Shown here piece after piece: positions 2,697 through 15,467 of a stretch of 64,000 nt of DNA. Both the position numbers and the translations under genes were made by a program. Below the pieces are notes generated by a model. That model searched no databases. It saw nothing but the letters and a program-made list of their open reading frames with translations, and was not told the DNA's origin. Origin of the DNA: Gimesia sp. (lineage in GTDB: Bacteria; Planctomycetota; Planctomycetia; Planctomycetales; Planctomycetaceae); assembly GCA_002706765.1 (NCBI GenBank), contig PAJV01000013.1, positions 124,001 through 188,000 on the forward strand. Direction: 5' to 3'. Numbering within the stretch: the stretch's first letter is position 1; each line of letters starts with the position of its first letter.

Positions 2697-2721
2697 GCCT
2701 CCCCGCTGAAAGCGGGGAGGC
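2697..2721 (-). terminator. Intrinsic terminator, minus strand
   Basis: An 11-bp perfect stem (GCCTCCCCGCT / AGCGGGGAGGC) with a 3-nt loop. On the minus strand it is followed by a run of T residues. It lies just after the tiny ORF at 2740-2805. Confidence 0.75.
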
Positions 2722-2739
2722 AATGCCGAACTGGCGATA

Positions 2740-2805
2740 CTACTCCCCTTCCCCCGTCATATTCATATCAATATGCTGTCTTATCCCTGACTGATTCTCG
2801 CTCAT
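2740..2805 (-). CDS. Possible 21-residue small protein
   Basis: The reading frame is MSENQSGIRQHIDMNMTGEGE. An AGGAAAG sequence lies about 10 nt before the ATG and a perfect intrinsic terminator starts 18 nt after the stop. The arrangement is that of a complete small gene, and the terminator has no other obvious client. There is no homology that I recognise, and a chance ORF remains possible. Confidence 0.3.
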   Translation of the reverse strand: MSENQSGIRQHIDMNMTGEGE

Positions 2806-2970
2806 TTCTATAACTTTCCTATCAGGCAATCACGCTTCTATCTGAAAATCACCAAATTGAATTGCACCTTTCAGATTCAAAACGATTCTGAGAGGTTTGG
2901 TATTCCGATTGTTATCGCTGTGATTGAATACCACGTTATTGAGTTGTTAACGAAATCTCTGAATAGAGAT

Positions 2971-2987
2971 CAGTGGCTTTGTACCTT
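2971..2987 (+). promoter_or_regulatory. 17-nt element motif, copy 1
   Basis: CAGTGGCTTTGTACCTT, 39 nt before the ATG of the RuvB-like gene. One of nine copies in 2.9-13.8 kb. The last six bases (TACCTT) fit a weak -10 box, so a promoter is a reasonable reading, but an operator or RNA site is not excluded. Confidence 0.6.
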
Positions 2988-3026
2988 GTGGGGCAGAATC
3001 AATCACCCGCAAACAGGAAAGAGCCC

Positions 3027-3974
3027 ATGTCCGATATCAACGATGTGCAACCAACTTCATTGTCCCACCTGATTGGCCAGGAGCATGCCAAGAAGGTTAT
3101 CGAAGTTGGGCTAAACTATGCTTTCTCTGAGAATCAACCTTTTCCGACTCCAACGCTGTTACTCGGGCCTCCAGGGATCGGCAAGACGGCATTTGCCAAT
3201 GTCATTGCCCAGGAGATGTGTTCTTCATTCACAGAGACACTCGCTCAAAGCATCCAGTCGCCAGCCGACATGCACGCCGTTTTGTTGGGAGCCAGAGATA
3301 AGGATGTGGTGTTCCTGGATGAGTGTCACGAACTCGACAAGAAACTGCAAACGCTTCTTTACTTGGCCATCGACAAGCGGCGGATCGTAGTCAATGGAAG
3401 TGGACAGTCTCCGCAATCTATTCCGATTGCCGACTTCACGCTTCTCTTGGCAACTACTGATCCGCAACGGCTTTTACAGCCTTTGAAGGATCGGGCCAAA
3501 GTCATCATCAACTGCGATTACTATGAGCCTGAGGAACTGGCACAAATCGTGTGGCACCGCAGCCGAGCATTGGGGTGGGATGTGCATGAAGCCGTCTTGC
3601 CTCTTATCGCCCAACGATCACGGGGAACGCCTAGAATTGCACTACGGCTGCTCAATTCGTGCTGGCGCTGCTGCCGGTCAGAAGGAGAAAAGAATATTGA
3701 CATCAAACATTTGGAGCAGGCGTGTCAGTTAGAGAAGATCGATGAAATCGGTCTCGACTCTACGGAACGCCGATACCTGATTGCTCTGGGTAAAGGTCCA
3801 ACTCGCCTGGGTGTTATGGCTTGCATTCTTGGCCTGGAATCGAGGGCGGTCAGTCACCACGTCGAACCCTTTCTGTTGCGGAGTGGTTTGGTCGTCAAAG
3901 ATAAGAATGGACTGCGGGAATTGACGCAACAGGGGTATGAATACCTGTCGCATAGTCGTCCTGAAACAGACTGA
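3027..3974 (+). CDS. RuvB-like AAA+ ATPase
   Basis: The 315-residue protein follows the RuvB layout. Walker A GPPGIGKT is at 47-54, Walker B VVFLDE at 94-99 and sensor 1 LLLATTDP at 139-146. A C-terminal winged-helix-like domain begins near residue 240. RuvB drives branch migration of Holliday junctions in homologous recombination. The protein is slightly shorter than housekeeping RuvB and lies among mobile-element genes, so it is probably an element-borne paralogue for recombination or replication of the element. The ATG at 3027 is preferred because AGGAAAG lies upstream and the longer frame starts inside the repeated motif. The HTH gene follows after about 110 nt. Confidence 0.85.
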   Translation: MSDINDVQPTSLSHLIGQEHAKKVIEVGLNYAFSENQPFPTPTLLLGPPGIGKTAFANVIAQEMCSSFTETLAQSIQSPADMHAVLLGARDKDVVFLDECHELDKKLQTLLYLAIDKRRIVVNGSGQSPQSIPIADFTLLLATTDPQRLLQPLKDRAKVIINCDYYEPEELAQIVWHRSRALGWDVHEAVLPLIAQRSRGTPRIALRLLNSCWRCCRSEGEKNIDIKHLEQACQLEKIDEIGLDSTERRYLIALGKGPTRLGVMACILGLESRAVSHHVEPFLLRSGLVVKDKNGLRELTQQGYEYLSHSRPETD

Positions 3975-4085
3975 TTTGCGTTCGGTTTGTGTCTGATATT
4001 TATCTCAATGTGCCGTCGAATCGGTCTCCCCTATCTGTCCGATTCTTGTCGTCTTTTCCCCTGATCTTTGCTGGAGTTATGTCCG

Positions 4086-4547
4086 ATGACTGACCGAAAC
4101 ATGTCTAATTTTAAGGAATTTGTGAGCGTTTCCGAAATGGCTGCCTTGTGCGACCTGTCTCGGCAGCGGTTTCATGAATTGATCGGGATCGTCTTCCCAT
4201 ATCCTGTCTACCTGTTGTCCAATAGGCGTCCGATTTATGACCGGAAACTGCAAGAAGTCTGTTTGGGAGTTCGCAGTACGGGACGATCAATCAATGGCGA
4301 ACCGGTCCTCTTCTATCGTCGTCGATCGCAACAACCAAAGAGTAAACAGCGAAAAGACACCAAGCTACAAAACGGCAACCATGCCGATCTGGTCAAGAGC
4401 CTGGGAGCGTTGGGGCTGACCCCACTCGATGATCGTCAGGTAAGTCAGGCTCTGCGGGAGGTCTTTCCACAAGGGACAGCCGAAGTAGCCCCCGGCGAAG
4501 TGATCCGGCAGGTCTTTCTCAAGCTGAAGTGTGAGAGAGATGTCTGA
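4086..4547 (+). CDS. HTH domain protein, MerR/excisionase-like
   Basis: The protein has 153 residues. The N-terminal third reads FVSVSEMAALCDLSRQRFHE, which has the shape of a MerR or excisionase helix-turn-helix. It is followed by a basic stretch (YRRRSQQPKSKQRKDTK) and a C-terminal part with no recognised motif. It probably binds DNA. Its place between a RuvB-like gene and a tyrosine recombinase fits a directionality or regulatory factor, which is inference. The ATG at 4086 has GGAG about 10 nt upstream; a TTG at 4068 is the alternative. No copy of the 17-nt motif precedes it, so it may be read from the promoter of the preceding gene. Confidence 0.65.
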   Translation: MTDRNMSNFKEFVSVSEMAALCDLSRQRFHELIGIVFPYPVYLLSNRRPIYDRKLQEVCLGVRSTGRSINGEPVLFYRRRSQQPKSKQRKDTKLQNGNHADLVKSLGALGLTPLDDRQVSQALREVFPQGTAEVAPGEVIRQVFLKLKCERDV

Positions 4548-4624
4548 TTTGTGGCGATGGCTGTGACCGGAAGTTGTCGTTATTTTATCAGACGATGATC
4601 TGGGATTGCTTCCACGCTGTCAAT

Positions 4625-4641
4625 CAGTCACGCCGTACCTT
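4625..4641 (+). promoter_or_regulatory. 17-nt element motif, copy 2
   Basis: CAGTCACGCCGTACCTT, 80 nt before the tyrosine recombinase start. The ends of the motif are conserved and the centre varies. Confidence 0.55.
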
Positions 4642-4721
4642 CAAGGCCAGCGAATTCAATTTCGCATAATGGTCAGATCACGAAGTTCAAACCGGGTTTT
4701 CGAGCCAAAGAGGCATCTCCA

Positions 4722-5447
4722 ATGACAGAAAACCGCCCCAATGGCGCATCGCAAAACGGAAAAGCGAAATCAAACATCGTCTCTCAGGTCGTGCGGATCA
4801 TTCGTAAGGCAGGACTGGATTACGAAGACTGGCGATATGTCGCCAAGCGAGTTCGACAGGAATGCGAACTGCGACCTGCCAAGCGAAAGCAAAAACTGCC
4901 TAAGGTTCTGAACGCCGATGATTTCAGGCGCTTTTACAAAATCGTTGATCGGGCGGACAACGTAGAACACAGTCTGATGTTGCGGTTGTTGTTCTATACC
5001 GGCGTGCGGGTCTCGGAATTATGCAGCATGGAAGTAGCTGACTTGGACCTGGAGAACTGCAAAATCAGAATCAACGATGGCAAAGGTTCCAAAGACCGAT
5101 ACGTCCTGTTCGGAAAGAGTTTCGCTACCGCACTGCGGACTCACATCGCTGCTCATTCAGAGAATCGCTGGCTGTTTCAAAGTCGCAGGAACACAAAGTA
5201 TTCGACCAGACGCATTCAGCAAATCGTCAAGGAATATGCAGAGGAAACAGGGGTGAAGGCAACACCGCATACATTCCGACACCAGGCTATCACCTGGCTG
5301 ACCCGCCATTCCGGCATGGCGGATGCAGAACTACAATTGATAACGGGGCACTCTCGGCGAGAGACGTTAGCTGTCTATCAACACATCGCTCTGGATGGGG
5401 AACTCGAAGAACGCTACCAGAAGGCGATGCGGGATGTGGAGTTGTAA
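4722..5447 (+). CDS. Tyrosine recombinase/integrase
   Basis: The 241-residue protein has the complete phage-integrase catalytic set: R96 (GVRVSE), K121 (GKGSKD), H183 and R186 (HTFRH), H210 (GHS) and the nucleophile Y219 (AVYQH). The N-terminal SAM-like DNA-binding domain is short, and the first 20 residues look disordered. It catalyses site-specific strand exchange through a 3'-phosphotyrosyl intermediate. It lies 17 kb from the element end visible here, so it may act on another site, resolve dimers, or belong to an older element nested inside. A perfect 12-bp hairpin follows the stop. Confidence 0.93.
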   Translation: MTENRPNGASQNGKAKSNIVSQVVRIIRKAGLDYEDWRYVAKRVRQECELRPAKRKQKLPKVLNADDFRRFYKIVDRADNVEHSLMLRLLFYTGVRVSELCSMEVADLDLENCKIRINDGKGSKDRYVLFGKSFATALRTHIAAHSENRWLFQSRRNTKYSTRRIQQIVKEYAEETGVKATPHTFRHQAITWLTRHSGMADAELQLITGHSRRETLAVYQHIALDGELEERYQKAMRDVEL

Positions 5448-5462
5448 ACCCGGTCTCAGAAT

Positions 5463-5489
5463 GCCCCGCCCGCCAGTGGCGGGCGGGGC
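5463..5489 (+). terminator. Perfect 12-bp hairpin after the recombinase
   Basis: GCCCCGCCCGCC / GGCGGGCGGGGC with a 3-nt loop, 15 nt after the recombinase stop. There is no T run, so it may stabilise the 3' end or block readthrough rather than act as a classical terminator. Confidence 0.6.
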
Positions 5490-5567
5490 TCGATCAATCT
5501 GTGCAATACCTTAACTTGTCTTCGACAAAAACGGGAGTGGATCTACCCGTACCTCATATGTTACACG

Positions 5568-5666
5568 ATGACCCATTATAGTCTTGATACCAATTCTGGT
5601 AACTTGGCTGACCTAACTCAAATCCTTGGCTACTCGAATTTGAAAACAACAAAGCAATATATTTGA
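5568..5666 (+). pseudogene. Tyrosine integrase C-terminal remnant
   Basis: The frame reads NSGNLADLTQILGYSNLKTT followed by KQYI and a stop. This matches the end of phage integrases (the LQxxLGHSSxxTTxxYx region), including the nucleophile tyrosine. The histidine of GHS is replaced (LGYS) and everything before the last 32 codons is lost. It differs from the intact recombinase just upstream, so it is a relic of a different integrase. Confidence 0.65.
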
Positions 5667-5707
5667 CGTCCAGAGGATGAAGTGAGGGAAGCGGCTGATC
5701 GGATGGA

Positions 5708-6121
5708 CTACTGACCTGCTGAGTCCTCTGCCTTAATGATTCCCTTTGCCATACAAGTTATACCATTCCCAATCGCTGGAGTGCGAGGTTGGGACTCAAA
5801 GCAGAAACGAACCACGTCACCCTGCCTTGTCTCCGATCGAATTGCTTCAGCGATTTCGGCACATCGGCTGTGGATTTGTTGCTCTTGCCCCTGAGCAATA
5901 GGATCAATATCGAATGATGCAGTGACTCTAATCAATTTGCCGGTGTCGTTGACATCGATTACTTTCACGCCGTTAGCAGCCTGCCGCCAGTTGGGCTGCA
6001 CCAATCGGCTAAAGATCCGATCGTATTCCTTTGGATCAAGTTCTGCCAATTTATAATCAATACCTCGGATCGCCTCGGCAAAAATATTCTTCACGTCGTC
6101 AGTGGACGGAACGTCTAACAT
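5708..6121 (-). CDS. Hypothetical protein, 137 aa
   Basis: This is a soluble mixed alpha/beta protein with no motif I recognise. The middle (KVIDVNDTGKLIRVTASFDI) and the later part (VVRFCFES) look like beta strands around helices. The start at 6121 is supported by a diverged copy of the 17-nt motif 62 nt upstream on the same strand (6184-6200). It is transcribed divergently from the DUF932 gene, so the two promoters face away from each other across about 45 bp. The function is unknown. Confidence 0.6.
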   Translation of the reverse strand: MLDVPSTDDVKNIFAEAIRGIDYKLAELDPKEYDRIFSRLVQPNWRQAANGVKVIDVNDTGKLIRVTASFDIDPIAQGQEQQIHSRCAEIAEAIRSETRQGDVVRFCFESQPRTPAIGNGITCMAKGIIKAEDSAGQ

Positions 6122-6183
6122 TTGCCGGTCCTTTTCTGTATGAGGCTAATAAGCTTTTGATTTGTTGAGTTGAAAAAAGATCC

Positions 6184-6200
6184 AAGGTGCAGAGCATCTG
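6184..6200 (-). promoter_or_regulatory. 17-nt element motif, diverged minus-strand copy
   Basis: On the minus strand it reads CAGATGCTCTGCACCTT, 14 of 17 matches to the consensus. It lies 62 nt before the ATG of the 5708-6121 gene, the same distance range as the plus-strand copies. Confidence 0.45.
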
Positions 6201-6244
6201 AATTTCTACTCAGTCTACCCTGTTCACAGTCATTCGGCAACATT

Positions 6245-6261
6245 CAGTCACCTCGTACCTT
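6245..6261 (+). promoter_or_regulatory. 17-nt element motif, copy 3
   Basis: CAGTCACCTCGTACCTT, 62 nt before the DUF932 gene start. It stands back to back with the minus-strand copy at 6184-6200. Confidence 0.55.
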
Positions 6262-6323
6262 GCAATTGCGACGGCTGCCGACTGTCGGCAGCTAATCGCA
6301 ATTATGGCACAGGGAGACACGAC

Positions 6324-7319
6324 ATGCCAGCAAACATTTCTTTTCAGAACAGTAAGGCAGAAGCTTTTACTTCATTGACGCCCGCATGGTGGGATCGCAA
6401 AGGTGAGTACGTCGCCGACCAACATCTCACCAGCAAGCAAGTATGGGGCAAGAGGGGCGTGCTTAATTTTGAGTATGAACTTCGTCCCATATCTGATGCC
6501 AAAACCGGTATGAAACTCGACAGCTATCGTCATTGTATCCGCAAAGATACCGGCGTCACAGTCGGTTGCGGTATGACGGACGGGTACCGTATCGTCCAGC
6601 CACGGCAGGCATTTGACTTCCTGGATGACCTCATGCGGGATGGCGTGATGCGGTACGCTTCCGCCGGTGTTCTCGGTAAAGGTGAAGAGATTTGGATTCT
6701 CGGCGTCATCCCGAATGACGATCAACCGATTTACGGCGAGACTCATAATCGATACGTCCTTTGGACAGATCGATTCGATGGTGGTGGCACGTTGAAATGC
6801 TTCCCATGCGTGACCCGTGTCGAATGTGCGAATACTCTGGCTGTGGCTCTTTCCGAGTGGAACGCCAAATTATTCAAAGGCATCCGTCACAGCGGCGATA
6901 TGCAAGCCAAGCTCGATGCGGCCCGCCAAACGTTGGTTGAAGTCGAAACTGCATTCCAGAAATATAACGCCGACTGCCAGAAGTTGATTTCCGCCCGGTT
7001 CAACCGAGATGATGCTCGACAATTTATTGAGACACTTCTCCCGATGCTGAATGATGATGCCAGTCAGCGCTCGAAGTCAATTCGAGAGAGAAAGGTCCAA
7101 GCTGTACGGGAAGCTATGCGAGATGAGACGAACAACCTCGGCGAGATGAAGGGGACCTGGTATCAACTCGCCAATGCCGTCACGTTTGCCATTGATCATG
7201 GAAACGTACTCCATTTCCGTGGTGACCAGCGAACCAATCGTTTCCGATCACTAATGATGAATGATGGTGCAAACCTCAAACGCAAGGCATTCGACCTTGC
7301 CCTGAATATGGCCAGTTAG
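6324..7319 (+). CDS. DUF932 phage/plasmid-like protein
   Basis: The 331-residue protein resembles the DUF932 (phage/plasmid-like, TIGR03299-type) family. Shared features are the N-terminal W..KG segment, the YRHCIRKDTG..VGCGMTDGYRIVQ region, the conserved RVECANTL motif near residue 170 and the helical C-terminal half. The family is common on phages, plasmids and integrative elements, and its biochemical role is not established. The ATG at 6324 has AGGGAG upstream. The gene is a full module with the 17-nt motif before it and a hairpin after it. Confidence 0.8.
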   Translation: MPANISFQNSKAEAFTSLTPAWWDRKGEYVADQHLTSKQVWGKRGVLNFEYELRPISDAKTGMKLDSYRHCIRKDTGVTVGCGMTDGYRIVQPRQAFDFLDDLMRDGVMRYASAGVLGKGEEIWILGVIPNDDQPIYGETHNRYVLWTDRFDGGGTLKCFPCVTRVECANTLAVALSEWNAKLFKGIRHSGDMQAKLDAARQTLVEVETAFQKYNADCQKLISARFNRDDARQFIETLLPMLNDDASQRSKSIRERKVQAVREAMRDETNNLGEMKGTWYQLANAVTFAIDHGNVLHFRGDQRTNRFRSLMMNDGANLKRKAFDLALNMAS

Positions 7320-7328
7320 TCTCCCTGG

Positions 7329-7369
7329 CCCGTCCCGTTCGGCTGAACATTTCAGTCGGACGGGGTTTT
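7329..7369 (+). terminator. Intrinsic terminator after the DUF932 gene
   Basis: A long imperfect stem (CCCGTC...TTCAG side pairing with CTGAA...GACGGG) with a 3-nt loop, followed by TTTT. It begins 9 nt after the stop codon and ends only 13 nt before the next copy of the motif. Confidence 0.75.
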
Positions 7370-7381
7370 CATTTCTGGAAT

Positions 7382-7398
7382 CAGTGGCTCTGTACCTT
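7382..7398 (+). promoter_or_regulatory. 17-nt element motif, copy 4
   Basis: CAGTGGCTCTGTACCTT, 47 nt before the ATG at 7446. It is identical to the orphan copy at 9003-9019. Confidence 0.6.
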
Positions 7399-7445
7399 GA
7401 GTGGCATGAACCAATTCACATGCCACTCTTACCGGGAAGCCTCTC

Positions 7446-7868
7446 ATGCAATTCAGCATTATTTATTCCGTCGATACTCCGCACAATGTGGACGTCGAAC
7501 AATTCGCTCCACCAAACGCCGACGAAATATGGAATCAAACCGAGGACGACGAACAGTACGAGTACGACTATCTCGAAGGTCGTTGGGAAAACGGCCATCA
7601 CCGAAAATGGTGTGCCATCCTCGACCGCCAGCAGTTTGATGACTTCGTTGGAGATTGCTGCCTGGCTGCCGAAGATGTTGAAACGATGGGCAGCCTGGGT
7701 GCTCCCGGTTTCGGTGTCGGTTGGGTACCAGCAATCAGCTTCAATGGCGACGATCCCGACGCTTTTCAAAACGCATACGTCACACCGATTCCCGAAACCA
7801 AACGGGAACAATGTAACGAAAGGGACTGGCAGCGTGTGCGAGGTGCGGTACTTGCCATCTACGGGTAG
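7446..7868 (+). CDS. Hypothetical acidic protein, 140 aa
   Basis: The protein is acidic and rich in aromatic residues (for example EDDEQYEYDYLEGRWENG), with a cysteine pair in DCCLAAEDVE. No known family is recognised. The module structure supports it as a real gene: the motif 47 nt upstream, GGGAAGCC as a likely ribosome site, and a perfect hairpin about 50 nt after the stop. Confidence 0.6.
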   Translation: MQFSIIYSVDTPHNVDVEQFAPPNADEIWNQTEDDEQYEYDYLEGRWENGHHRKWCAILDRQQFDDFVGDCCLAAEDVETMGSLGAPGFGVGWVPAISFNGDDPDAFQNAYVTPIPETKREQCNERDWQRVRGAVLAIYG

Positions 7869-7919
7869 CAGCTTCCGTTGGATTCAATTCTGAACACCAC
7901 GAAGTTTTGTTATAGATCT

Positions 7920-7946
7920 GCTTCCCCGACCAAAGGTCGGGGAAGC
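7920..7946 (+). terminator. Perfect 12-bp hairpin
   Basis: GCTTCCCCGACC / GGTCGGGGAAGC with an AAA loop. It lies between the 7446 gene and the next copy of the motif. Confidence 0.65.
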
Positions 7947-7960
7947 TCGTTCAACCCGAT

Positions 7961-7977
7961 CAGTAGCTTTGTACCTT
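7961..7977 (+). promoter_or_regulatory. 17-nt element motif, copy 5
   Basis: CAGTAGCTTTGTACCTT, 34 nt before the ATG at 8012, the shortest spacing of the set. Confidence 0.6.
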
Positions 7978-8011
7978 CAAAGGCAAACTTACTCAATCAT
8001 TGGAGACCACC

Positions 8012-8314
8012 ATGACCAAGCAATTCATACATCCTGATGATGCCACCAGACAGGCGGCAAAGTATGCCTTACTCGTCCAGGACGGAGTCAATCTCCGTGC
8101 GATCGTCGCTCAGATGTTGAGGGACATCGATGCAATACGAAAGTCGCAGAAACTCAACGGAGATGCGATCAACTCTCATCCGGTCGTACTGGCATACGTC
8201 AGTAAGCTGGCCAGTCTCACTCAGCTATCCACGGAGCGGGAAGTCGCTGCCCTGGAAGGAGTCGAACGTTTGGCGAATGGCAATGCGGTGGAATCGGAGG
8301 TGATCCCGTTATGA
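8012..8314 (+). CDS. Hypothetical protein, 100 aa
   Basis: This small, probably all-helical protein starts MTKQFIHPDDATRQAAKYAL. No family is recognised. The ATG at 8012 is chosen because TGGAGACC precedes it; the frame is open from a TTG at 8000. The stop overlaps the ATG of the next gene by 4 nt, so the two are translationally coupled. Confidence 0.6.
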   Translation: MTKQFIHPDDATRQAAKYALLVQDGVNLRAIVAQMLRDIDAIRKSQKLNGDAINSHPVVLAYVSKLASLTQLSTEREVAALEGVERLANGNAVESEVIPL

Positions 8315-8523
8315 GTGATGATCAGGCCAAAGAACAACTGACAGCCATACTTGAACATTACACGACAGGCAGTGTTCTACACCTACTTGCCGACTTGTAC
8401 CGAGAGTCAGCAGACAGTGCTCAGCAGGACGGTGATGCACTGGCGTGCGACCGCTTCAAGGCAATTGAGCAGGCTTTGTTTGTAGTGGGGTTGGGAGTCG
8501 ATGCGGCGAATCCTTCATCGTGA
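8311..8523 (+). CDS. Hypothetical protein, 70 aa
   Basis: A small acidic helical protein (MSDDQAKEQLTAILEHYTTG...) with no recognised family. It overlaps the previous gene by ATGA. It probably works with that gene product, since both are short, helical and coupled. A small GGGGAA/TTCCCC hairpin lies about 20 nt after the stop. Confidence 0.6.
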   Translation: MSDDQAKEQLTAILEHYTTGSVLHLLADLYRESADSAQQDGDALACDRFKAIEQALFVVGLGVDAANPSS

Positions 8524-8542
8524 CGAACTCCATAAATCAATT

Positions 8543-8555
8543 GGGGAAATTCCCC
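8543..8555 (+). terminator. Short hairpin between modules
   Basis: GGGGAA-A-TTCCCC palindrome just after the 8311-8523 gene. It is a weaker version of the hairpins that close the neighbouring modules. Confidence 0.35.
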
Positions 8556-8599
8556 GTTCGCTTCGGTTACCAACAGAATTCGCTAACCATTAGAGCCAT

Positions 8600-8616
8600 C
8601 AGTAGCTCCATACCAT
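8600..8616 (+). promoter_or_regulatory. 17-nt element motif, copy 6 (diverged end)
   Basis: CAGTAGCTCCATACCAT, 41 nt before the ATG at 8658. It keeps the CAGT and TACC blocks. Confidence 0.5.
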
Positions 8617-8657
8617 GACTTGCAGATCGTCACTCTTTCAATCAACGGAGACCACAC

Positions 8658-8951
8658 ATGAATTCTGCAAAATTCCCTCTTGGGCAAATCGTCGCCACCC
8701 CCGGTGCATTGGAAGCTCTCGAAAACGCAGGCCAATCACCGGCCGAGTTCCTCAGCCGCCATGCAGCATGTGACTGGGGTGAAGTATGTGACGAGGACAA
8801 GCAGGCCAACGACGAAGCCTTGAAGACTGGAGTAAGATTGTTGTCGGCGTATCATACGGCAGACGACTCAAAAATCTGGATCATCACTGAAGCTGCCGAT
8901 GAGAATGGTCGGCGAGAGGCGACGACGATTTTGTTGCCATCAGAGTATTGA
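8658..8951 (+). CDS. Conserved small protein, 97 aa
   Basis: The protein contains FPLGQIVATPGALEALENAG, an acidic middle with CDWGEVC, and an end with ATTILLPSEY. I recall this as a widespread small family found on plasmids and islands, sometimes labelled as a restriction subunit without good reason. The recall is from memory and the function is unknown. The closely spaced cysteines could bind a metal. GGAGACC precedes the ATG, and a strong hairpin follows the stop. Confidence 0.7.
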   Translation: MNSAKFPLGQIVATPGALEALENAGQSPAEFLSRHAACDWGEVCDEDKQANDEALKTGVRLLSAYHTADDSKIWIITEAADENGRREATTILLPSEY

Positions 8952-8963
8952 TCGATTTAGGAG

Positions 8964-8993
8964 GCCAACTCTCACCGACAGGTGGGAGTTGGC
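8964..8993 (+). terminator. Hairpin closing the 8658 module
   Basis: GCCAACTCTCACC pairs with GGTGGGAGTTGGC across a short loop, starting 13 nt after the stop. Confidence 0.6.
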
Positions 8994-9002
8994 GGGTAGT
9001 GA

Positions 9003-9019
9003 CAGTGGCTCTGTACCTT
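9003..9019 (+). promoter_or_regulatory. 17-nt element motif, orphan copy 7
   Basis: CAGTGGCTCTGTACCTT, identical to copy 4, but no plus-strand gene follows. The sequence runs AT-rich into the 3' end of the convergent HD gene. The gene it once served may have been lost, or it drives a short RNA antisense to the HD gene. Confidence 0.5.
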
Positions 9020-9145
9020 GTTCAGAACAAAACCTGTTACATAATAAAAAACCAAACAACTATTTCCATAATCCCTGAGTAACTTGGCTCCAAGCACGTC
9101 GTCTGGAGTGATATGCAGTCTACGTTTTCTTGGGACTCCTATTTG

Positions 9146-9691
9146 TCACCCATTGCTTCGCTGCCATGCAAGCCTTTCGTCGCCTTGACTGGCAATCTTT
9201 TCAAGCAAGCCATCGAGTTCACTGAAAACTTCCCACTCTTCGACACAAGTTTGACGGGAAATCGTGTCGATCACTTGTTTCTCCAGTTCATCAATCCGTT
9301 GTCCCTTCCAGATCGCATCGCTTAGGGCAACGAGAAGATCTTCGATCGGCAACGCTTCCTTTGTCCAGCGACCGTGAGTTCGGGAAAACTGAGCCAGTCT
9401 CGGTTCAACTCCGTGCTCTTCCAACAACGCCGGTCCATCTTCTTCATGCTGGCGACCGGGGCCGGTCAATTCGTTGGGATGTTTCACCTTCCCAATGTCA
9501 TGGCTCCCTGCCCCAAAACAAACTGCGGCCTCGTCAAACTCCAAGTCATGAAACTTCTGCCGTAATCCTTCGCATAAGTCAACGGCGACGTCATGGACGA
9601 GAATCAGATGGAACAATAGTTTGTTCTCTGCATCCAGTTCGAGGCAAAGTCTCTGAATCTCAACAGGAAGTGGACGAGGGGCGAAAGTCAT
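9146..9691 (-). CDS. HD-domain phosphohydrolase
   Basis: The 181-residue protein has the HD metal-site pattern: H33 (LVHDVA), H64-D65 in GAGSHDIGK, then H82/E83 and H106. HD proteins are metal-dependent phosphohydrolases acting on nucleotides or RNA ends. The substrate here cannot be told. The ATG at 9691 is preferred: it follows the ArdC stop by 10 nt, and a longer in-frame extension would overlap ArdC by hundreds of bases and looks non-coding. It is the last gene of the minus-strand operon that starts at 13660. Confidence 0.75.
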   Translation of the reverse strand: MTFAPRPLPVEIQRLCLELDAENKLLFHLILVHDVAVDLCEGLRQKFHDLEFDEAAVCFGAGSHDIGKVKHPNELTGPGRQHEEDGPALLEEHGVEPRLAQFSRTHGRWTKEALPIEDLLVALSDAIWKGQRIDELEKQVIDTISRQTCVEEWEVFSELDGLLEKIASQGDERLAWQRSNG

Positions 9692-9701
9692 GCAGTGGCC
9701 T

Positions 9702-10730
9702 TTACCAAGCCTTAGTGAAACACATGTTGTCTGGTCCACTGATGAAGTGAACCGGTGGAATGATGGAGCATTTATCGTGATAGACACGTTCCGCTCGTTG
9801 AAGGATCGGATGAAGCAAGAAATCACACACACGGTCGACCTGAGCCATCGCCCAGAAGAAAAACGAATCATCTGTGTGAAAGATAACATTCCAATGTCGA
9901 AGCCACTTTCGGTGATTGTATTCGTCAAAACAATGAGGAACGCCCAACTCCAGACCAAGAATGTGCATTCCCGCCTCGGCGACAAATTCTCGAACAGGTA
10001 GACAATGCATCCAGTCGGTTCGGATCTCAGACCAATGGACCAACTCATGTAGCATGACCGAATAATGATCGGCACGACTTGGAAAATGATTCTCAGATTG
10101 CATCAGGATGTAGTCGCCATATTTGTGAGTAGGGAAATCGTGCCAAGGTTCAGGCACAACGTAGCCATTCCAGTCAGGCGGATTCTTGGTGTCACCTTTG
10201 TCGAATCGAATATCCGGCTGATGGTATTCCAACAACATTCCCATGAAGCTTAAATCAGCTTCGTCATTGGCCATGATCGCACCGTCAGCCTGAAGGCTCT
10301 GGCGGTCACAGGCACCGTGGACCTGGCTGGCGTGAAAGACCAGACAAGGATCGGCCTTGCAACCAACATCACGATATTGAGCAATGACAGTGGGTTCTTG
10401 GCCATACTTGACGACGGCACCGATCGCTTCCCAGTCCTCTGCCGTTCCCCACCATTTGTTGCGATACCCTTTTGTATGATAGGTGTCACATAAGAGCAAA
10501 GTGTTGACGCCACGGTATCGACCACCAGTTCGAACGTTGTGGGGCAAACCACAATTAGGATCATGAGACAAGGGAATCTTCCAGGGAATACGTCCCCGTT
10601 GCAGAGCAACTGTTATCCGCTGATTGATGTAGGCGTTGATATCGGGAACACTTCCTGATCCATCCCAGAATTCATCAGGAAGAATCAGGCGTGAGCGGAG
10701 TAAACGGGATGTTATCGGTGTCTTGATCAT
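9702..10730 (-). CDS. ArdC-like anti-restriction / zincin-type protein
   Basis: The protein has 342 residues. The N-terminal part matches the ArdC DNA-binding domain (INAYINQRI...G..PWKIP, then TGGRYRGVN). The C-terminal part is a zincin-like domain with HELVH at 228-232 and E252 in EFVAEAG as the likely third ligand. ArdC-type proteins are carried by conjugative plasmids and protect incoming DNA from restriction. It follows the TPR gene by 44 nt in the same operon, which supports an establishment role for the operon. Confidence 0.8.
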   Translation of the reverse strand: MIKTPITSRLLRSRLILPDEFWDGSGSVPDINAYINQRITVALQRGRIPWKIPLSHDPNCGLPHNVRTGGRYRGVNTLLLCDTYHTKGYRNKWWGTAEDWEAIGAVVKYGQEPTVIAQYRDVGCKADPCLVFHASQVHGACDRQSLQADGAIMANDEADLSFMGMLLEYHQPDIRFDKGDTKNPPDWNGYVVPEPWHDFPTHKYGDYILMQSENHFPSRADHYSVMLHELVHWSEIRTDWMHCLPVREFVAEAGMHILGLELGVPHCFDEYNHRKWLRHWNVIFHTDDSFFFWAMAQVDRVCDFLLHPILQRAERVYHDKCSIIPPVHFISGPDNMCFTKAW

Positions 10731-10774
10731 TGTGTTTCGGTATTACAATCGTACAAATCTGTATCTTCAAATCA

Positions 10775-11899
10775 TTACTTCATGAATGGATTGTGGACCC
10801 ACTTTCCACCCTGACCACCACAATTGGGACAACGGCGTTCATTTGTTGTGCCGATGTTCTGGAAGCCCTTCCCCCTGCAGGACGGACAGTTATCCCATAT
10901 GGTTCGGCCTCCACTTCCACCTGACGAGCCATTGCTACCGGCCTCTCCACCGCTGGAATTCGAACCACTGGCTGTAGCCATTCCGCCGAGAGCACATAGA
11001 CCGATCGCAGCTAGTCCGCCAACGAGCAGACCCGTCGTCTTGACTGCCTTCCAAGCCCCTTGGGCTACATCACTGGGAACTGAATTGAAAGTTCCACATT
11101 CCACACATTCCTGCTGGCGGCTAATAACAGTAGCAGGATGGTGCTGAAGCATTCCGCACTGGCCACAGTAAAAATTGATGGTCCTTCCCTCCTCTGTTTG
11201 AGTAAATTTCTCAACATACGGAACCGCTCTGACGACAAGCGGCTCTTCTGAAAGAATTTCTGTTTCGGGTAACCCTCGTATTCTGACCCAATCGATTTTC
11301 GATGGATGATCACTGTTGTACTCTGGAACCTCACACTCAGGATTCAATCTATGTGCAACCTGAAAGTCTTCGAGTGCCTTGGCAAGCTTATTTGCTGAGG
11401 CGCTCGCCCTGGCCCACGATTCATATGTCAGGGCTCGATAATAGATCGGCTGAGCATTTTGGGGTTCGCTCTGTATGGCACGATTCAACAGCACGATTGC
11501 TTCTTCAAATCGATTTTGAGTTGTCGCCCTTTCGGCTTGAAGACACAATGTAGGCACATGTTTCGGGACGAGATGTAGTGACTTCTTCAGGTTCTCACTG
11601 GCTTTCTTTTCGTTTCCCAGGCACAAGTAGGTCCAGCCCCGAGAAAAGTATGCGTCAGCACATGTAGGCTCAAGTTCAACTATTCTGTCGAGAAGTATCA
11701 GCGTCTTGTCATACTGAGCATTACCAAAGAAGACATCAGCTTCTTCGAATAGATGCGCCACATTGTTGTTTTCGTCTGTGGAACCGGTCTCATCCAGTAG
11801 ATCCTCACGCAATTCTTTATAGGTCTTCTGATCAATCCGTCCTTCAAGCAAAGCTTTTTGTAGTTTGATTAGATGTTGTTCGGACATGTTATACTTCAC
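10775..11899 (-). CDS. TPR protein with zinc ribbons, membrane-anchored
   Basis: The order of parts is: an N-terminal SHOCT-like segment (LLEGRIDQKTYKELREDLL), TPR repeats from about residue 45 to 180, a zinc ribbon CGQCGM...CVECGTF near 245-275, one hydrophobic segment (LLVGGLAAIGLCALGGMA), a Gly/Ser-rich linker, and a DnaJ-like CPSCRGKGF...CPNCGGQG end. It is probably an assembly or scaffold protein at the membrane. The start is a GTG at 11899 whose last two bases begin the upstream stop (GTGA); an ATG at 11887 is the alternative. The SHOCT-like segment is shared with the next gene upstream. Confidence 0.65.
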   Translation of the reverse strand: MKYNMSEQHLIKLQKALLEGRIDQKTYKELREDLLDETGSTDENNNVAHLFEEADVFFGNAQYDKTLILLDRIVELEPTCADAYFSRGWTYLCLGNEKKASENLKKSLHLVPKHVPTLCLQAERATTQNRFEEAIVLLNRAIQSEPQNAQPIYYRALTYESWARASASANKLAKALEDFQVAHRLNPECEVPEYNSDHPSKIDWVRIRGLPETEILSEEPLVVRAVPYVEKFTQTEEGRTINFYCGQCGMLQHHPATVISRQQECVECGTFNSVPSDVAQGAWKAVKTTGLLVGGLAAIGLCALGGMATASGSNSSGGEAGSNGSSGGSGGRTIWDNCPSCRGKGFQNIGTTNERRCPNCGGQGGKWVHNPFMK

Positions 11900-12636
11900 T
11901 TACTACGGATTACATTGATTTTGAATAGTTGATCCTTGAACTGTCCCCAAAAAGATCCTGGTTCAATTTGAATTTCGTAATGTCCCGAAGCATCGAAATG
12001 TAATGGATGCACAAAGTTCTTATCGATGCGAAAGAAAAAAGGTGCCGAATCTTTGTTTGTTTCGTTTAGCTTGAGAGTGTGGTGACCAGTTGAAGTCTCA
12101 AAGTCGATGTGAATTCCTGCGACTTCAGAACCAGTTCCGATTAGTTCATCATCGAGATAAACATCTATTTTCAATTCAGAGGAACCGCCCTTGCCAACCA
12201 TACAAATATTACCAGTCACCCAGGGAGACACCTTAGACTCACTATTAGTTTGGGAGATTTCCTGCACCGCTGAATCGTTGCTGTCAGTTTTGGATTGTTT
12301 ACTGGCGTAAAGCAAATCTCGTTTGAGCATATCATACGTCTCTTTGTCGATCTGTCCTTCCAGTAGTTTGTCCTGTAGCTCAGTCAGTTGAGAACTAATA
12401 CCTGCACTTGAATTGGACGGCGTTACTTTTGACAACGGCGGTGGCACAGGCCGCTTATGATTTGAGGCATTGAGCAGCCCATCAACTTTTTCGGCTGGTT
12501 CCCACTGGGTCATTCCCTCTCGCCAGACGAGCGTTGTTGAAGAAATATCTCCTGAAAGAACGAGACCCTGCATCTGATCGGCTGGCACTGGTCCAAGTTG
12601 CTCTCCATTGTTACTGAAATACCACTCTGTAGTCAT
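11896..12636 (-). CDS. GYF_2/SHOCT-like domain protein
   Basis: The protein starts MTTEWYFSNNGEQLGPV, a clear GYF_2-type domain (WYF...G.Q.GP....Q...L...G.I...T.VWREGM..W). A proline-rich linker, a SHOCT-like helix pair (ELQDKLLEGQIDKETYDMLK) and a beta-rich C-terminal domain with no known match follow. GYF domains bind proline-rich peptides, and the upstream protein has a PPPP stretch that could be a partner (inference). The ATG at 12636 is chosen because the longer frame would overlap the previous gene. Translation is coupled to the TPR gene. Confidence 0.7.
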   Translation of the reverse strand: MTTEWYFSNNGEQLGPVPADQMQGLVLSGDISSTTLVWREGMTQWEPAEKVDGLLNASNHKRPVPPPLSKVTPSNSSAGISSQLTELQDKLLEGQIDKETYDMLKRDLLYASKQSKTDSNDSAVQEISQTNSESKVSPWVTGNICMVGKGGSSELKIDVYLDDELIGTGSEVAGIHIDFETSTGHHTLKLNETNKDSAPFFFRIDKNFVHPLHFDASGHYEIQIEPGSFWGQFKDQLFKINVIRSK

Positions 12637-12688
12637 TACGGTTCTCCAACTGGATTCACAGCAATCAATACTAAAAATAAACATCTCA

Positions 12689-13660
12689 TTACTTCCCTCG
12701 CATGTCTTCTTCATTAGCGGGGAAACTCTTAGTACGACCAAAAAATACACTTGACCACAATACTCCACCGGGGTGACCAGGAGGTGCTTCGCCCCGATGG
12801 ATCTCAACACGATACTCAAACAGACTCTCGGCTTCATCTGCCAGATGACCGGGCACTCTAGTCGCTTCTAAGGCATCTTCCCAACGTTCCCGAAACTGAT
12901 GGAGCGGCCCTCCGCAGAACCAATTCCAATCTGCAACGAAATAAAGCGGATGATTCCCACGATCAACCCAATGCTTGATGCGGTGGACAGGTTTGTCGGA
13001 GATCGGCTCTAAGCCAAGAATATAAATCATCATCGATAAGTGCGTGAGTGCTCCTTGGGTGGCAAGAGGGTCCACGCCTTCTTCCTCATTGTTTCTTTTG
13101 ATTTCGTTATAAAAGCCACGAAACCATTCAGTGTTGATATATTTTTGCAACTCAGGCGAAGCCACACGACGGCCCATGATCTGGTCAAGAAGTTCCTTCG
13201 GAGTTATATCACCAGATTGAATCTGGCCGTTTCTCCAGTAGCCCTGTTGCTTCAGCGGTCCCAGAAATTGGAAGAGAGTTTGATAGGCACTGCCAGTATC
13301 GTATCCCTCACGGACCATGTGGCGGTAGCAATAGACGGCATTGATGCCAAACTGTTTTTTCAAATCGTCTTCAATGTCTCGGACATACGCCACAGCTTCG
13401 GGGGATGGCAAACCTCCATCATCCAAGGGAGGGGGAGGCGCAGTCTGCTCGGGCGTGAGAGACATCTTGGGATTTCGAGCATTCTGTCCATTCCCACGAT
13501 GATTGTTGGCGATAGCACCTGCGCCGCACAGGCCCAGCGCAATTGCGGCTGGACCAGCAGCAACGCCACCAGCCAGCCACATCAGGCCGGTCCCGATGCT
13601 CATGTAGGAGTACATATCATTGGCTTGTCCTTTGGACATCAATGGGGGGCGGAGTGTCAT
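12689..13660 (-). CDS. Hypothetical membrane protein, first gene of operon
   Basis: The 323-residue protein has a hydrophobic N-terminal segment at about residues 22-52 (GTGLMWLAGGVAAGPAAIAL...), a Pro-rich linker with APPPPL, and a soluble C-terminal domain rich in W, H and R. No family is recognised. Together with the GYF and TPR/zinc-ribbon proteins it suggests a small membrane-linked complex. A minus-strand copy of the 17-nt motif lies 79 nt before the ATG, and the genes down to 9146 follow on the same strand with short gaps or overlaps. Confidence 0.65.
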   Translation of the reverse strand: MTLRPPLMSKGQANDMYSYMSIGTGLMWLAGGVAAGPAAIALGLCGAGAIANNHRGNGQNARNPKMSLTPEQTAPPPPLDDGGLPSPEAVAYVRDIEDDLKKQFGINAVYCYRHMVREGYDTGSAYQTLFQFLGPLKQQGYWRNGQIQSGDITPKELLDQIMGRRVASPELQKYINTEWFRGFYNEIKRNNEEEGVDPLATQGALTHLSMMIYILGLEPISDKPVHRIKHWVDRGNHPLYFVADWNWFCGGPLHQFRERWEDALEATRVPGHLADEAESLFEYRVEIHRGEAPPGHPGGVLWSSVFFGRTKSFPANEEDMRGK

Positions 13661-13739
13661 ATCAAATTTTCTCCTGGATTTGACAGAAATGGAATCAAGG
13701 GTTGGTTAGCCTCAGCATCTGATGAAAAATTCACTCACC

Positions 13740-13756
13740 AAGGCACAAGGCCACTG
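13740..13756 (-). promoter_or_regulatory. 17-nt element motif, minus-strand copy
   Basis: On the minus strand it reads CAGTGGCCTTGTGCCTT, 15 of 17 matches to the consensus. It lies 79 nt before the first gene of the 13660-to-9146 operon. Its orientation follows the gene it precedes, as for the other copies. Confidence 0.55.
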
Positions 13757-13816
13757 ATGACAGAATTCGAAGAAAAGCCGATTGATGTCGCCAACTTTTT
13801 CTGTCACAGCATCCCG

Positions 13817-14905
13817 TTACGGCAAGGTGAAGTTCTTGATCACACCAATTTGAAAGATCGGTTCCACTTTTGGATGACCGGTGATGAATAACTCTTTTGT
13901 CCCAAGAAGATAGCGAGGGCAGCGCACTTGATTCGGGACATTTTCAGTGTCAATGAATTTATAATCAACGAATGGTGTTTTATTATCAGTTCGTTTCAAA
14001 ACCAATAAATTCTTCTTATACTTTGGATTTCCCTCAACAGAACAGACCAATATCAGTCCATCTTCTGACAGCCAGGACCATGTTAGGAATCCCTGTAATT
14101 TGGTTTCCACTGATTTTGCAACAAGAGGACGTGGTGAGCCCCAGGGAGAATTGCGATTTTCCCGAGTTGTGACCACGAGTTGGGCGTTATTTCCTGTACT
14201 GCGAAAGCAGAGTGTCAACCCATCGGACGTGAGATATGGCGACTTTGGGTTTCTGAATGTTTTCAGTTCTCGCACTTCGGTCGCTCGCCGAAATGGCTGA
14301 TCAAGTGACTCTCGACTTGTGGAATGAAGGGTCGGTTCCGATGCGGATGGGTGAGACTTTGCCAGAAACATCAGTTCCAAACCATTACCAGAAATGGCCG
14401 GGTGGCGACCAGGAAATAATCGTTGATGTTGTTGAAAGTAGCTCTCGGAATCTTTCCGTTGCGATGTGAAAAGGATTGCTCCGTTAGAATTCGGGACACC
14501 ATAGACTTCGTAGACGATGTGCTTCCCATCTGCCGTGGGAGACCCGTACAAACCATTGATCTCTTGGACGCCGACGAACTCGGGAACTTTCGGAGTACCC
14601 GAAGCCCGAATCTCAGTAATCACCGCTAAATCCTCGTTGTAATCGAGAACAACCTTGTGACCAGGCTTCAGCTTGTCAAGCGAGGCTGCTTGACCGTTGA
14701 CTTCGACCGTGGCTTTCTTACTGAGGTCTAGTGTTGTTGTCGTCTTTCCCAAAGCCGCTTTGTAGTTGACGGTAATCTTTCCCGCTTCCGAATCGACTGA
14801 AATCACATCGGCCTCGATTTCAGCGGCGAAACAAGTATCAACTTCTGTTGCAAAAAGAGAAACGAAAATTAGAGGTGAAAGCCATAGTAGGAAGTTCTGT
14901 GACAT
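13817..14905 (-). CDS. Exported PD40/WD40-like beta-propeller protein
   Basis: The 362-residue protein begins with a signal peptide (MSQNFLLWLSPLIFVSLFAT). A small beta domain follows at about 20-100 (the VISVDSEAGKITVNYK region). A propeller-like domain with TolB-type strands comes next, for example GSPTADGKHIVYEVY, PAISGNGLELMFLAKS and PYLTSDGLTLCFRST. Such proteins are common in planctomycetes and their substrates are unknown. The ATG at 14905 sits directly before the signal peptide and the longer frame adds an unlikely leader. It follows no obvious partner gene. Confidence 0.7.
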   Translation of the reverse strand: MSQNFLLWLSPLIFVSLFATEVDTCFAAEIEADVISVDSEAGKITVNYKAALGKTTTTLDLSKKATVEVNGQAASLDKLKPGHKVVLDYNEDLAVITEIRASGTPKVPEFVGVQEINGLYGSPTADGKHIVYEVYGVPNSNGAILFTSQRKDSESYFQQHQRLFPGRHPAISGNGLELMFLAKSHPSASEPTLHSTSRESLDQPFRRATEVRELKTFRNPKSPYLTSDGLTLCFRSTGNNAQLVVTTRENRNSPWGSPRPLVAKSVETKLQGFLTWSWLSEDGLILVCSVEGNPKYKKNLLVLKRTDNKTPFVDYKFIDTENVPNQVRCPRYLLGTKELFITGHPKVEPIFQIGVIKNFTLP

Positions 14906-15086
14906 TTCATATCTCCATTGTGGTTTGAAGAAGATCGGTAGCAAAAGCTTTTAAGCCGATTGCCAAGACAGAGACGGAATGCCTCACAACGAGTTTACTA
15001 GTATACAAACTATAATGGTTATTAGCAACTATTATTAGATGTGTTTTGCGTCTCCAAGTTCAGACGAATGAACAATGGAGGTGCGC

Positions 15087-15467
15087 ATGGGAAAAAAGAA
15101 AATTCAAATTCAGCATGCAGAAATCGTGAACCGATTCGGTATACGTCTGCGTGAATTGCGGCGAAGTCGGGGCCTGACGCAGGCAAAACTCGCTCAGGAA
15201 GCTCGTCTGACGGCGTCATATGTGGGTAGGCTGGAAGTCGGTGGCGCTTCGCCTGGAATAGACCTCGTTCAACGACTTGCCGATGCACTTGGAACAACGG
15301 TTCACGATCTGTTACCCACCGAGAAATCCCCTGATACTGAGGCGACATTGAAAAAACGGGCTAAGGATCTTTTCGATGATCTGATGAAATCTGCTGATCG
15401 TGAGACACTTTTGATGCTAGTGCCGCTCCTGGCTAGACTGGGCGAATCGCCGACCAGGCGAAAGTAA
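15087..15467 (+). CDS. Xre-family transcriptional regulator
   Basis: The 126-residue protein has a typical Xre/Cro helix-turn-helix at about residues 15-70 (LRELRRSRGLTQAKLAQEA, then YVGRLEVGGASPGIDLVQRL). A short helical C-terminal part contains TLLMLVPLLARLG. It probably represses element genes. The ATG at 15087 is set by GGAG 6 nt upstream. The preceding intergenic stretch (14906-15086) is AT-rich with ACTATAAT- and TAGCAACTATTATTAG-like sequences that could hold its promoter and operator. It converges with the next gene, with 4 nt between the stops. Confidence 0.85.
   Translation: MGKKKIQIQHAEIVNRFGIRLRELRRSRGLTQAKLAQEARLTASYVGRLEVGGASPGIDLVQRLADALGTTVHDLLPTEKSPDTEATLKKRAKDLFDDLMKSADRETLLMLVPLLARLGESPTRRK

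Follow-up and report, generated by a model that had tools for sequence, protein, structure and literature searches.

A single upstream sequence shared by antirestriction genes and other plasmid genes is an arrangement of a known kind. In the CUP/ArdK system of the IncN plasmids pKM101 and R46, the sequences upstream of ardB, ardK and repA are bound by ArdK and follow a consensus of about 13 nucleotides (nt), according to the accessible part of PMC6289460. In the pLS20 family, ardC and further operons lie behind the same regulatory sequence, and the regulon was found through the region upstream of ardC; as given in the accessible part of PMC8708921, EGeRS1 is 420-750 bp long with inverted repeats, and EGeRS2 (Reg-p576) is a strong promoter with TTATCCCnnTTATCCC operators. 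The Frpo/ssi single-strand promoters of plasmid leading regions are another known solution (accessible part of PMC11541004). A few model plasmids are known to have such plasmid-wide regulons, headed by antirestriction genes. Here we examine a 64,000-nt stretch of the genome of a Gimesia sp. (hereafter the window; GenBank contig PAJV01000013.1, positions 124,001 to 188,000), in which an element of mobile type carries a 17-nt motif before an ardC operon and before genes for a RuvB-like ATPase, a tyrosine recombinase, a DUF932 protein and several small proteins. It is fairly probable that this motif forms the recognised portion of a promoter that serves an establishment-type regulon and is read by a factor specific to the element.

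Other mobile-type gene arrays of the same class have their own motif of 12-18 nt before many genes, in gene orientation, and we refer to these versions as dialects. As in CUP/ArdK, one upstream sequence is common to antirestriction and other plasmid genes, and as in the pLS20 family ardC shares it with further genes, the motif standing before ardC in the window, in a related element (G129, below) and in further arrays. The arrays differ from CUP/ArdK in holding up to 19 copies, placed before most cassettes, in a motif that varies between related elements, and in that no ordinary promoter is seen beside it. From EGeRS1 and EGeRS2 the motif differs in its length of 12-18 bp, in lacking a palindrome and in lacking sigma-A boxes. 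Frpo depends on secondary structure with -35 and -10 boxes on the transferred strand, whereas hardly any extra structure is found here.

Membership in some known systems was tried and rejected. An EGeRS2/Reg regulon does not fit, as the logo of 22 sites shows no dual heptamer operator block and sigma-A boxes do not exceed chance (a ribbon-helix-helix repressor was not searched for). An Frpo promoter does not fit sites that lie on both strands with little structure, in a genome that has no match to PF02534 or PF03432, and an integron attC array does not fit a motif without a dyad at a fixed distance before gene starts.

The promoter sets of T7, T3 and SP6 consist of many copies of a short asymmetric promoter, with dialects that differ between relatives and recognised bases directly upstream of the start. 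The arrays described here resemble T7 and T3 in the divergence of dialects between related elements and in the many copies per element. In the literature searched on planctomycete mobile elements, which was thin on subscription papers, no description of these dialects or of this promoter type was found. That search also yielded nothing on planctomycete mobile elements with ArdC or with a structured noncoding RNA, and for antirestriction genes with a conserved promoter it yielded only PMC8708921.

A first-pass annotation of the window had reported nine sites of the motif, eight of them followed by a gene start on the same strand. All nine are present, and the eight gene starts were borne out, the start codon following 34-80 nt behind the end of the motif (39, 80, 62, 47, 34, 41, 62 and 79 nt). 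A tenth site lies outside the window on the same contig (C13). The sites are listed below with leave-one-out scores from a position weight matrix (PWM) where these matter; G129 and G111 are the genomes of two relatives from a family other than the window's.

2971-2987, plus strand: motif site CAGTGGCTTTGTACCTT, before the RuvB-like gene; the RuvB-like genes of G129 and G111 are likewise preceded by a site
4625-4641, plus strand: motif site CAGTCACGCCGTACCTT, before the tyrosine recombinase gene; 20.2 bits leave-one-out
6184-6200, minus strand: motif site, divergent partner of the 6245 site, with 44 bp between them
6245-6261, plus strand: motif site CAGTCACCTCGTACCTT, before the DUF932 gene; its variant letters recur at the DUF932 site of G111 and nearly so in G129
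7382-7398, plus strand: motif site before the gene for a protein of 140 amino acids (aa); hairpin terminator immediately upstream
7961-7977, plus strand: motif site before the 100-aa and 70-aa gene pair; hairpin upstream
8600-8616, plus strand: motif site CAGTAGCTCCATACCAT, before the 97-aa gene; 18.1 bits leave-one-out
9003-9019, plus strand: motif site with a hairpin upstream, followed by a conserved stretch without a conserved open reading frame (ORF)
13740-13756, minus strand: motif site CAGTGGCCTTGTGCCTT, before the ardC operon; in G129 a site (C1:1719228) flanks the ardC genes on the same side
C13:98330-98346, minus strand: tenth motif site, exact, 25.7 kb before the window

The motif is far more frequent in the window than chance allows. 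Six sites lie within three mismatches of the consensus in the 64 kb, where 0.24 are expected, and none of 100 shuffles reached six. The sites at 4625, 6245 and 8600 have four mismatches each, yet score 18-22 bits leave-one-out. When 204 kb of the contig (C13:24001-228000) were scanned with the ten-site PWM, the ten sites scored at least 24.7 bits and the next best sequence 14.7; leave-one-out, the ten scored 16-33 bits. Hits above 14 bits numbered 11, compared with 0.7 on average for column-permuted PWMs. At up to three mismatches the whole genome of 7.9 Mb gave 29 hits, compared with 28 for the reversed pattern, with no excess elsewhere, and a host-wide promoter was rejected on this ground. 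The protein families DUF1501, DUF1549 and DUF1559, typical of planctomycetes, mark the host as a member of that group. Near the tenth site, C13:98346 and 98539 (L009:14346 and 14539, minus strand) belong to upstream regions that are near-repeats at a distance of 193 bp; the motif is perfect in one of them and degenerate in the other.

The same annotation had suggested scanning related elements and the host with a PWM, and the motif held up in that scan. In G129 and G111 six sites each score at least 19 bits near the shared genes. We retained sites at this score beside shared genes and dropped weaker hits, among them hits of 18.5, 15.2 and 15.0 bits in G111 without an assignable gene and one of 14.1 bits in G129 opposite the DUF932 site. 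Behind the retained sites stand genes for the RuvB-like protein, the DUF932 protein, the 100-aa or 70-aa protein and the 97-aa protein, and in G129 also the ardC operon. The shared proteins are mostly 37-75 % identical, and one tyrosine recombinase pair 26 %. Both helix-turn-helix (HTH) proteins of the window, one Xre-like and one AlpA-like, are kept in all three elements of this dialect. The divergent pair before DUF932 is also found in G111 (39 bp apart), and its partner in G129 is degenerate (14.1 bits). The DUF932 site has the variant CAGTC[AG]C in all three elements, and there is no comparably clear case at other sites. In the logo of the 22 sites of the three elements the 17-nt block is the only strong block.

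The window's dialect is restricted to this small group. In 149 genomes, six match at up to one mismatch, and more than one match occurs only in the window's own genome, G129 and G111, which were also the top two genomes after the window's own in a DUF932 protein search of 148 genomes. An exact scan of 392 genomes across the phylum gave 11 matches, all in these three genomes and at the sites before the shared genes, and the reversed control gave three single matches; the class and phylum scans were even draws and did not take in every species. Within the family of G129, nine of 100 genomes match at one mismatch, with more than one match only in G129 and G111. One scan of a genome contig collection returned 108 pattern matches, none of them confirmed, and a second scan returned none. 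Among viral contigs, seven stretches have one match each.

Dialects were sought with the 97-aa protein as bait, for which 60 loci were fetched, mostly the best-scoring ones and so not a random draw. A matrix scan of the first 20 of these loci found the window's motif in none. A strict finder, which called for unrelated flanks and at least three copies above any of three shuffles, was positive in 14 of the 60 bait loci and in L013 of the window's own genome. L132, L143, L152 and L156 also passed it with repeats that are palindromic, tandem or GC-rich and were not counted; none of 16 DUF932 loci and none of 10 other fetched stretches passed. The finder is conservative, since the window, L027 and L031 (6, 6 and 4 copies) and L014 fail it. 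L014 has three exact copies of another dialect, weaker evidence was found in six further loci (L135, L151, L165, L167, L171 and L180), and four more (L183, L168, L170 and L144) appeared when upstream regions of known cassette genes were compared.

The dialect AGGACACCGGCAAG occurs in up to 15 copies, GCGGACACYGNCTG in up to 19 and AGGCACCTGCTA in up to 18. Another element than that of AGGACACCGGCAAG uses CAGTGGCTYTGTACCTT, and further dialect motifs are AGGCACCCCCTAGT, ACGGACACCARCTAC, CTAACNGACACTCGCAAC, TTTANGTCATACCCACTA, AGTTGAGTTGTACAGG and AGTGTCATTGTACC. The window's own genome contains three dialects: that of the window, AGGACACCGGCAAG (C13:59.7-62.8 and 77.6-82.3 kb) and GACACCCACAAG (L183, contig C71), the last in 8 of 10 upstream regions of L183, where shuffles give 2-3. 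At up to one mismatch, 13 of the 19 hits of AGGACACCGGNAAG fall on C13, where they form two clusters, which also speaks against a host-wide promoter. This genome has further arrays or isolated sites of other dialects at C13:59743-62844, at C13:77595-82254, on C71 (L183) and at C56:17704. Outside the planctomycetes, the Comamonas aquatica plasmid pB1A (L193, CP079746.1:111475-127735) has CTTTACTCAACC, at up to two mismatches, before 5 of 13 annotated genes close to a homologue of the 97-aa protein, with 2-3 in shuffles, and possibly has a similar layout. Three other plasmid regions with the 97-aa gene (L191, L192 and L194) yielded no signal above shuffles apart from low-complexity sequence. In L145 (13458-15811), a gene for an extracytoplasmic function (ECF) sigma factor lies near the array end, with a weak array motif (three mismatches) upstream, followed by a 586-aa gene.

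The dialects have a common architecture. They share a core, RYAC[CT], and many add a second box, GNCGT. In a pooled table of 224 sites from 20 loci, with equal weight per locus and the window's dialect excluded, the core reads G at -3 (0.82), A or G at -2, C at -1 (0.90), A at 0, C at 1, C at 2 (0.81), G at 4 (0.70), C at 5 (0.73) and A at 7 (0.75). It is followed by the second box with G at 12 (0.49), C at 14 (0.47), G at 15 (0.51) and T at 16 (0.38), and then by a leader rich in A and C and poor in T. The agreement of the core is partly built in, because sites were found by dialect and aligned on ACC; that of the second box is not. One locus, L140, is misaligned by four bases, with ACT taken as the core, and so dilutes the table. 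In the TTGTACC dialects a CG is about 3 nt closer, and the 224 sites show no conserved position further upstream. The first ATG of an ORF of at least 50 codons falls at +43 to +53 for 107 of the 224 sites, compared with 9-12 of 222-224 after a shift of 300 or 600 nt, for which the start position was defined slightly more simply than for the real sites. In most arrays the sites all point one way. In five arrays ardC has two tandem motifs 60-66 bp apart, as might be expected of a gene under special control:

L139, 5532/5598 and 6877/6943: tandem motifs at ardC
L138, 7180/7246: tandem motifs at ardC
L141, 13693/13627: tandem motifs at ardC
L013, 18255/18189: tandem motifs at ardC
L140, 2259/2319: tandem motifs at ardC

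In one cassette, found in eight loci of at least five dialects, the motif is followed by a conserved sequence of about 180-190 nt, at which the ORFs vary from locus to locus. Its consensus fold has 53 pairs, 24 of them with changes on both sides. Of all cells of the alignment that should pair, 89.8 % do; 51 cells are changed on both sides, compared with 18.7 in shuffles (reached by none of 500), and sliding the partners abolishes the pairing. Further pair types are no more numerous than usual, their number being reached by 60 of 500 shuffles. A covariance model of the folded part found the RNA in 13 of 397 genomes of the class, with one hit each. Eight of these hits built the model and five did not contribute to it:

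L139:7919-8096, plus strand: RNA of about 180 nt; also in L013, L141, L146, L188, L167, L153 and L179
G752, G599, G814, G005 and G798 (L200, L202 and L205-L207): further hits of the RNA

The core RYAC[CT] stands 13-15 nt before the first model position in all 13 hits, where chance is 0.02 per site. Four of the five new loci have 5-6 copies of the dialect (at up to two mismatches) within 3.2 kb, and the fifth has one. Because the 5' helix of the RNA begins just behind the motif, transcription would start at or before core +15, with the motif outside the conserved RNA; given the constant spacing, the start probably lies just behind the motif. No match to Rfam 15 at gathering score was found at the RNA in L139, L146 and L188, the sole hit being a tmRNA elsewhere in L146, and the RNA looks like a new family. 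An ORF follows the RNA in L146, which would allow for a leader as well as for an RNA of its own. An Rfam scan of positions 1-22000 of the window led nowhere. In the window itself, 9003-9145 resembles L027 16224-16370; this stretch is conserved behind the motif without a conserved ORF and extends into the 3' end of the HD gene.

On the promoter reading, there would be one copy of the motif for each cassette, be it a protein gene, a small operon or an RNA gene. Transcription would start about 6-14 nt behind the A of the core, giving an mRNA leader of about 35-45 nt, and the recognised bases would run from roughly -25 to -3. The hairpin of the preceding cassette would serve as terminator at some sites (10 of the 22 of the window's dialect). 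A factor tuned to the element's own dialect would read these promoters. It would thereby bring ardC under joint control with the genes for the RuvB-like ATPase, DUF932, the recombinase and the small proteins, and the set is probably an establishment regulon that acts once the element has entered a cell or been excised. The presence of ArdC, recombinases and plasmid-type small proteins suggests genes of entry or establishment. Since one dialect is stable over two families and stands beside other dialects in the same cell, we infer that the reader belongs to the element. The first-pass proposal of an element-specific promoter or operator before the RuvB-like, recombinase, DUF932 and ardC genes gains support from the restriction to elements, the orientation, the spacing, the single strong block and, in other dialects, the RNA just behind the motif. 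Its suggestion that TACCTT could be a weak -10 box failed, as other dialects have different bases at that place and 2700-14000 holds no more sigma-70-like sites than its shuffles do. Its picture of modules that end in hairpins stands in part: a terminator-motif-gene order is seen at 10 of the 22 sites of the three related elements, with a minimum free energy (MFE) of at most -14 kcal/mol within 60 nt upstream, a count made without shuffle control; a plain terminator scan of 2700-14000 was at shuffle level (11 found, 10.3 expected).

Several observations weigh against a dedicated promoter and its reader. To our knowledge the geometry fits no promoter class, as there is no -35 block and the core is not AT-rich, and the window's own dialect shows the second box only weakly. 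L148, L150, L154, L181, L182 and L187 hold the same genes without a clear motif. We compared 24 motif-bearing loci (the 14 strict ones, L013, the six with weaker evidence and the three elements of the window's dialect) with 40 others, which include the later-recognised L183, L168, L170 and L144. The motif-bearing loci have no regulator, sigma factor or polymerase in common; the 97-aa protein alone is in all 24, because it was the bait. Xre is present in 5 and the AlpA-like HTH in 10 of the 24, and the HTH also in 13 of the 40 loci counted as motif-free. ArdC is found in 20 of the 24 but also in 20 of the 40 and so is not specific. Finally, a constant RNA leader element would explain much of the same data.

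In that last alternative, transcripts start further upstream and the motif is a processing site or an antitermination signal like ops or put. The distance to the start codon is constant, the stop codon of the preceding gene is in some arrays overlapped by the motif or lies ahead of it, so that read-through transcripts are possible, and the conserved RNA could be a processed product. We nevertheless consider such a leader improbable, given the hairpins upstream at 10 of 22 sites (again without shuffle control), sigma-70-like promoters in 2700-14000 that are not above chance, and a folding around sites of the other dialects (RNA parameters, n=123 each) that hardly exceeds that 400 nt away, with a mean z of -0.59 compared with -0.43. 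The divergent pairs, 44 bp apart in the window and 39 bp in G111, also leave little room for separate upstream promoters. Nor do we see much likelihood in a motif that is an operator only, bound by a repressor or activator of the element (Xre, 15075-15467, or the AlpA-like HTH, 4086-4547) beside a separate ordinary promoter as in p576. The two HTH proteins recur in each of the three elements that use the window's dialect, and the accessible parts of PMC8708921 and PMC6289460 offer plasmid precedents with antirestriction genes. Yet there is no second conserved block of ordinary promoter type, the consensus is by eye not palindromic, sigma-70-like sites are at shuffle level, and neither HTH protein is present in all dialects.

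A recombination site, at which the element's recombinase exchanges cassettes in the manner of an integron, would account for cassettes being gained and lost among L138, L139, L141 and L013 with their junctions at the motif, for the motif being uniform per array and for the recombinase family (tyrosine, serine or both) in 19 of the 24 motif-bearing loci. It is very unlikely, as the distance to the start codon is fixed, the consensus has no dyad, the same layout occurs with two unrelated recombinase types, and slippage between direct repeats would explain the deletions. Chance, or similarity inherited by duplicated cassettes without function, is barely credible: the motif is short and some cassette genes recur within an array, but the motif stays while flanks are unrelated, is retained across elements that share proteins of mostly 37-75 % identity, and passes the shuffle, permuted-PWM and reversed-pattern controls.

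Further promoter and operator classes were rejected. A sigma-70/sigma-A promoter was dismissed with 10 sites in 2700-14000, compared with 10.5 in shuffles, and no -35 block in the logos. Sigma-54 (consensus TGGC..TTGC) has the wrong spacing, and its GG is lost in several sites. A palindromic operator was set aside because the consensus has, by eye, no dyad.

It is possible, though we hold it as doubtful, that the arrays represent a large family of planctomycete elements with orthogonal transcription systems, each with a private dialect that is neither sigma-70 nor sigma-54, an element-encoded factor or polymerase, a dialect and reader that co-diverge as in T7, and a structured RNA among the regulon genes. 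If dialect and reader do diverge together, three dialects in one cell, as in the window's own genome, would be separately expressed. Many elements use this one layout but spell the signal in about a dozen ways, so that a diverging factor-promoter pair can be studied here. Finding the reader could yield an orthogonal promoter set and explain joint gene switching in planctomycete elements, and the motif could serve as a simple test for such genes among many small proteins of no assigned function.

In the search for readers, a single-subunit RNA polymerase (PF00940) had no match in the window's own genome, but control genomes gave none either. The RuvB-like ATPase and the AlpA-like HTH occur in the same 10 of the 24 motif-bearing loci, nine of which have the tyrosine recombinase. 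Another ATPase, without a Pfam match, is found in 10 other loci of the 24, eight of which have one serine recombinase family. Both lineages show the motif layout, and the two ATPases never occur together in the 24; L131, one of the 40 other loci, has both. The genes of the window's element are as follows.

3027-3974, plus strand: RuvB-like AAA+ ATPase with winged helix (Pfam RuvB_N 6e-30, RuvB_C 5e-15)
4086-4547, plus strand: AlpA/MerR-like HTH protein, candidate regulator, behind the RuvB-like gene; 45 % (G129) and 37 % (G111) identical; no Pfam hit itself, relatives match AlpA/HTH_17 weakly
4722-5447, plus strand: tyrosine recombinase, 241 aa (Pfam Phage_integrase 1e-33)
5708-6121, minus strand: 137-aa protein of no family, without Pfam or PHROG hit; motif 62 nt upstream
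6324-7319, plus strand: DUF932 protein, phage/plasmid-like TIGR03299 (Pfam 2e-36, NCBIfam 2e-47)
7446-7868, plus strand: 140-aa protein of no family; in L146 a similar 140-aa ORF stands behind the motif
8012-8314, plus strand: 100-aa element protein; 10 of the 24 loci with the motif and 14 of the 40 others have a homologue
8311-8523, plus strand: 70-aa element protein; the G111 counterpart is 48 % identical
8658-8951, plus strand: 97-aa protein, widespread in the class (125 of 397 genomes) and in plasmids
9020-9145, plus strand: possible non-coding transcript; the stretch is conserved in G129 and is not the RNA of other dialects
9146-9691, minus strand: HD-domain protein, last gene of the ardC operon (Pfam HD 1e-6)
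9702-10730, minus strand: ArdC-like antirestriction protein (Pfam ArdcN 3e-17, MPTase-PolyVal 2e-7)
10775-13660, minus strand: TPR, GYF-domain and 323-aa genes, which open the ardC operon
15075-15467, plus strand: Xre-family HTH protein, candidate regulator, without motif upstream; 75 % (G111) and 70 % (G129) identical
20215-21852, minus strand: large serine recombinase (Pfam Resolvase and Recombinase), near the presumed right element end, followed by chromosomal-type genes

Homologues of the 97-aa protein are found in 163 plasmid records, 80 of them predicted to be conjugative, and in 4 phage records; in places the family is annotated as a restriction subunit.

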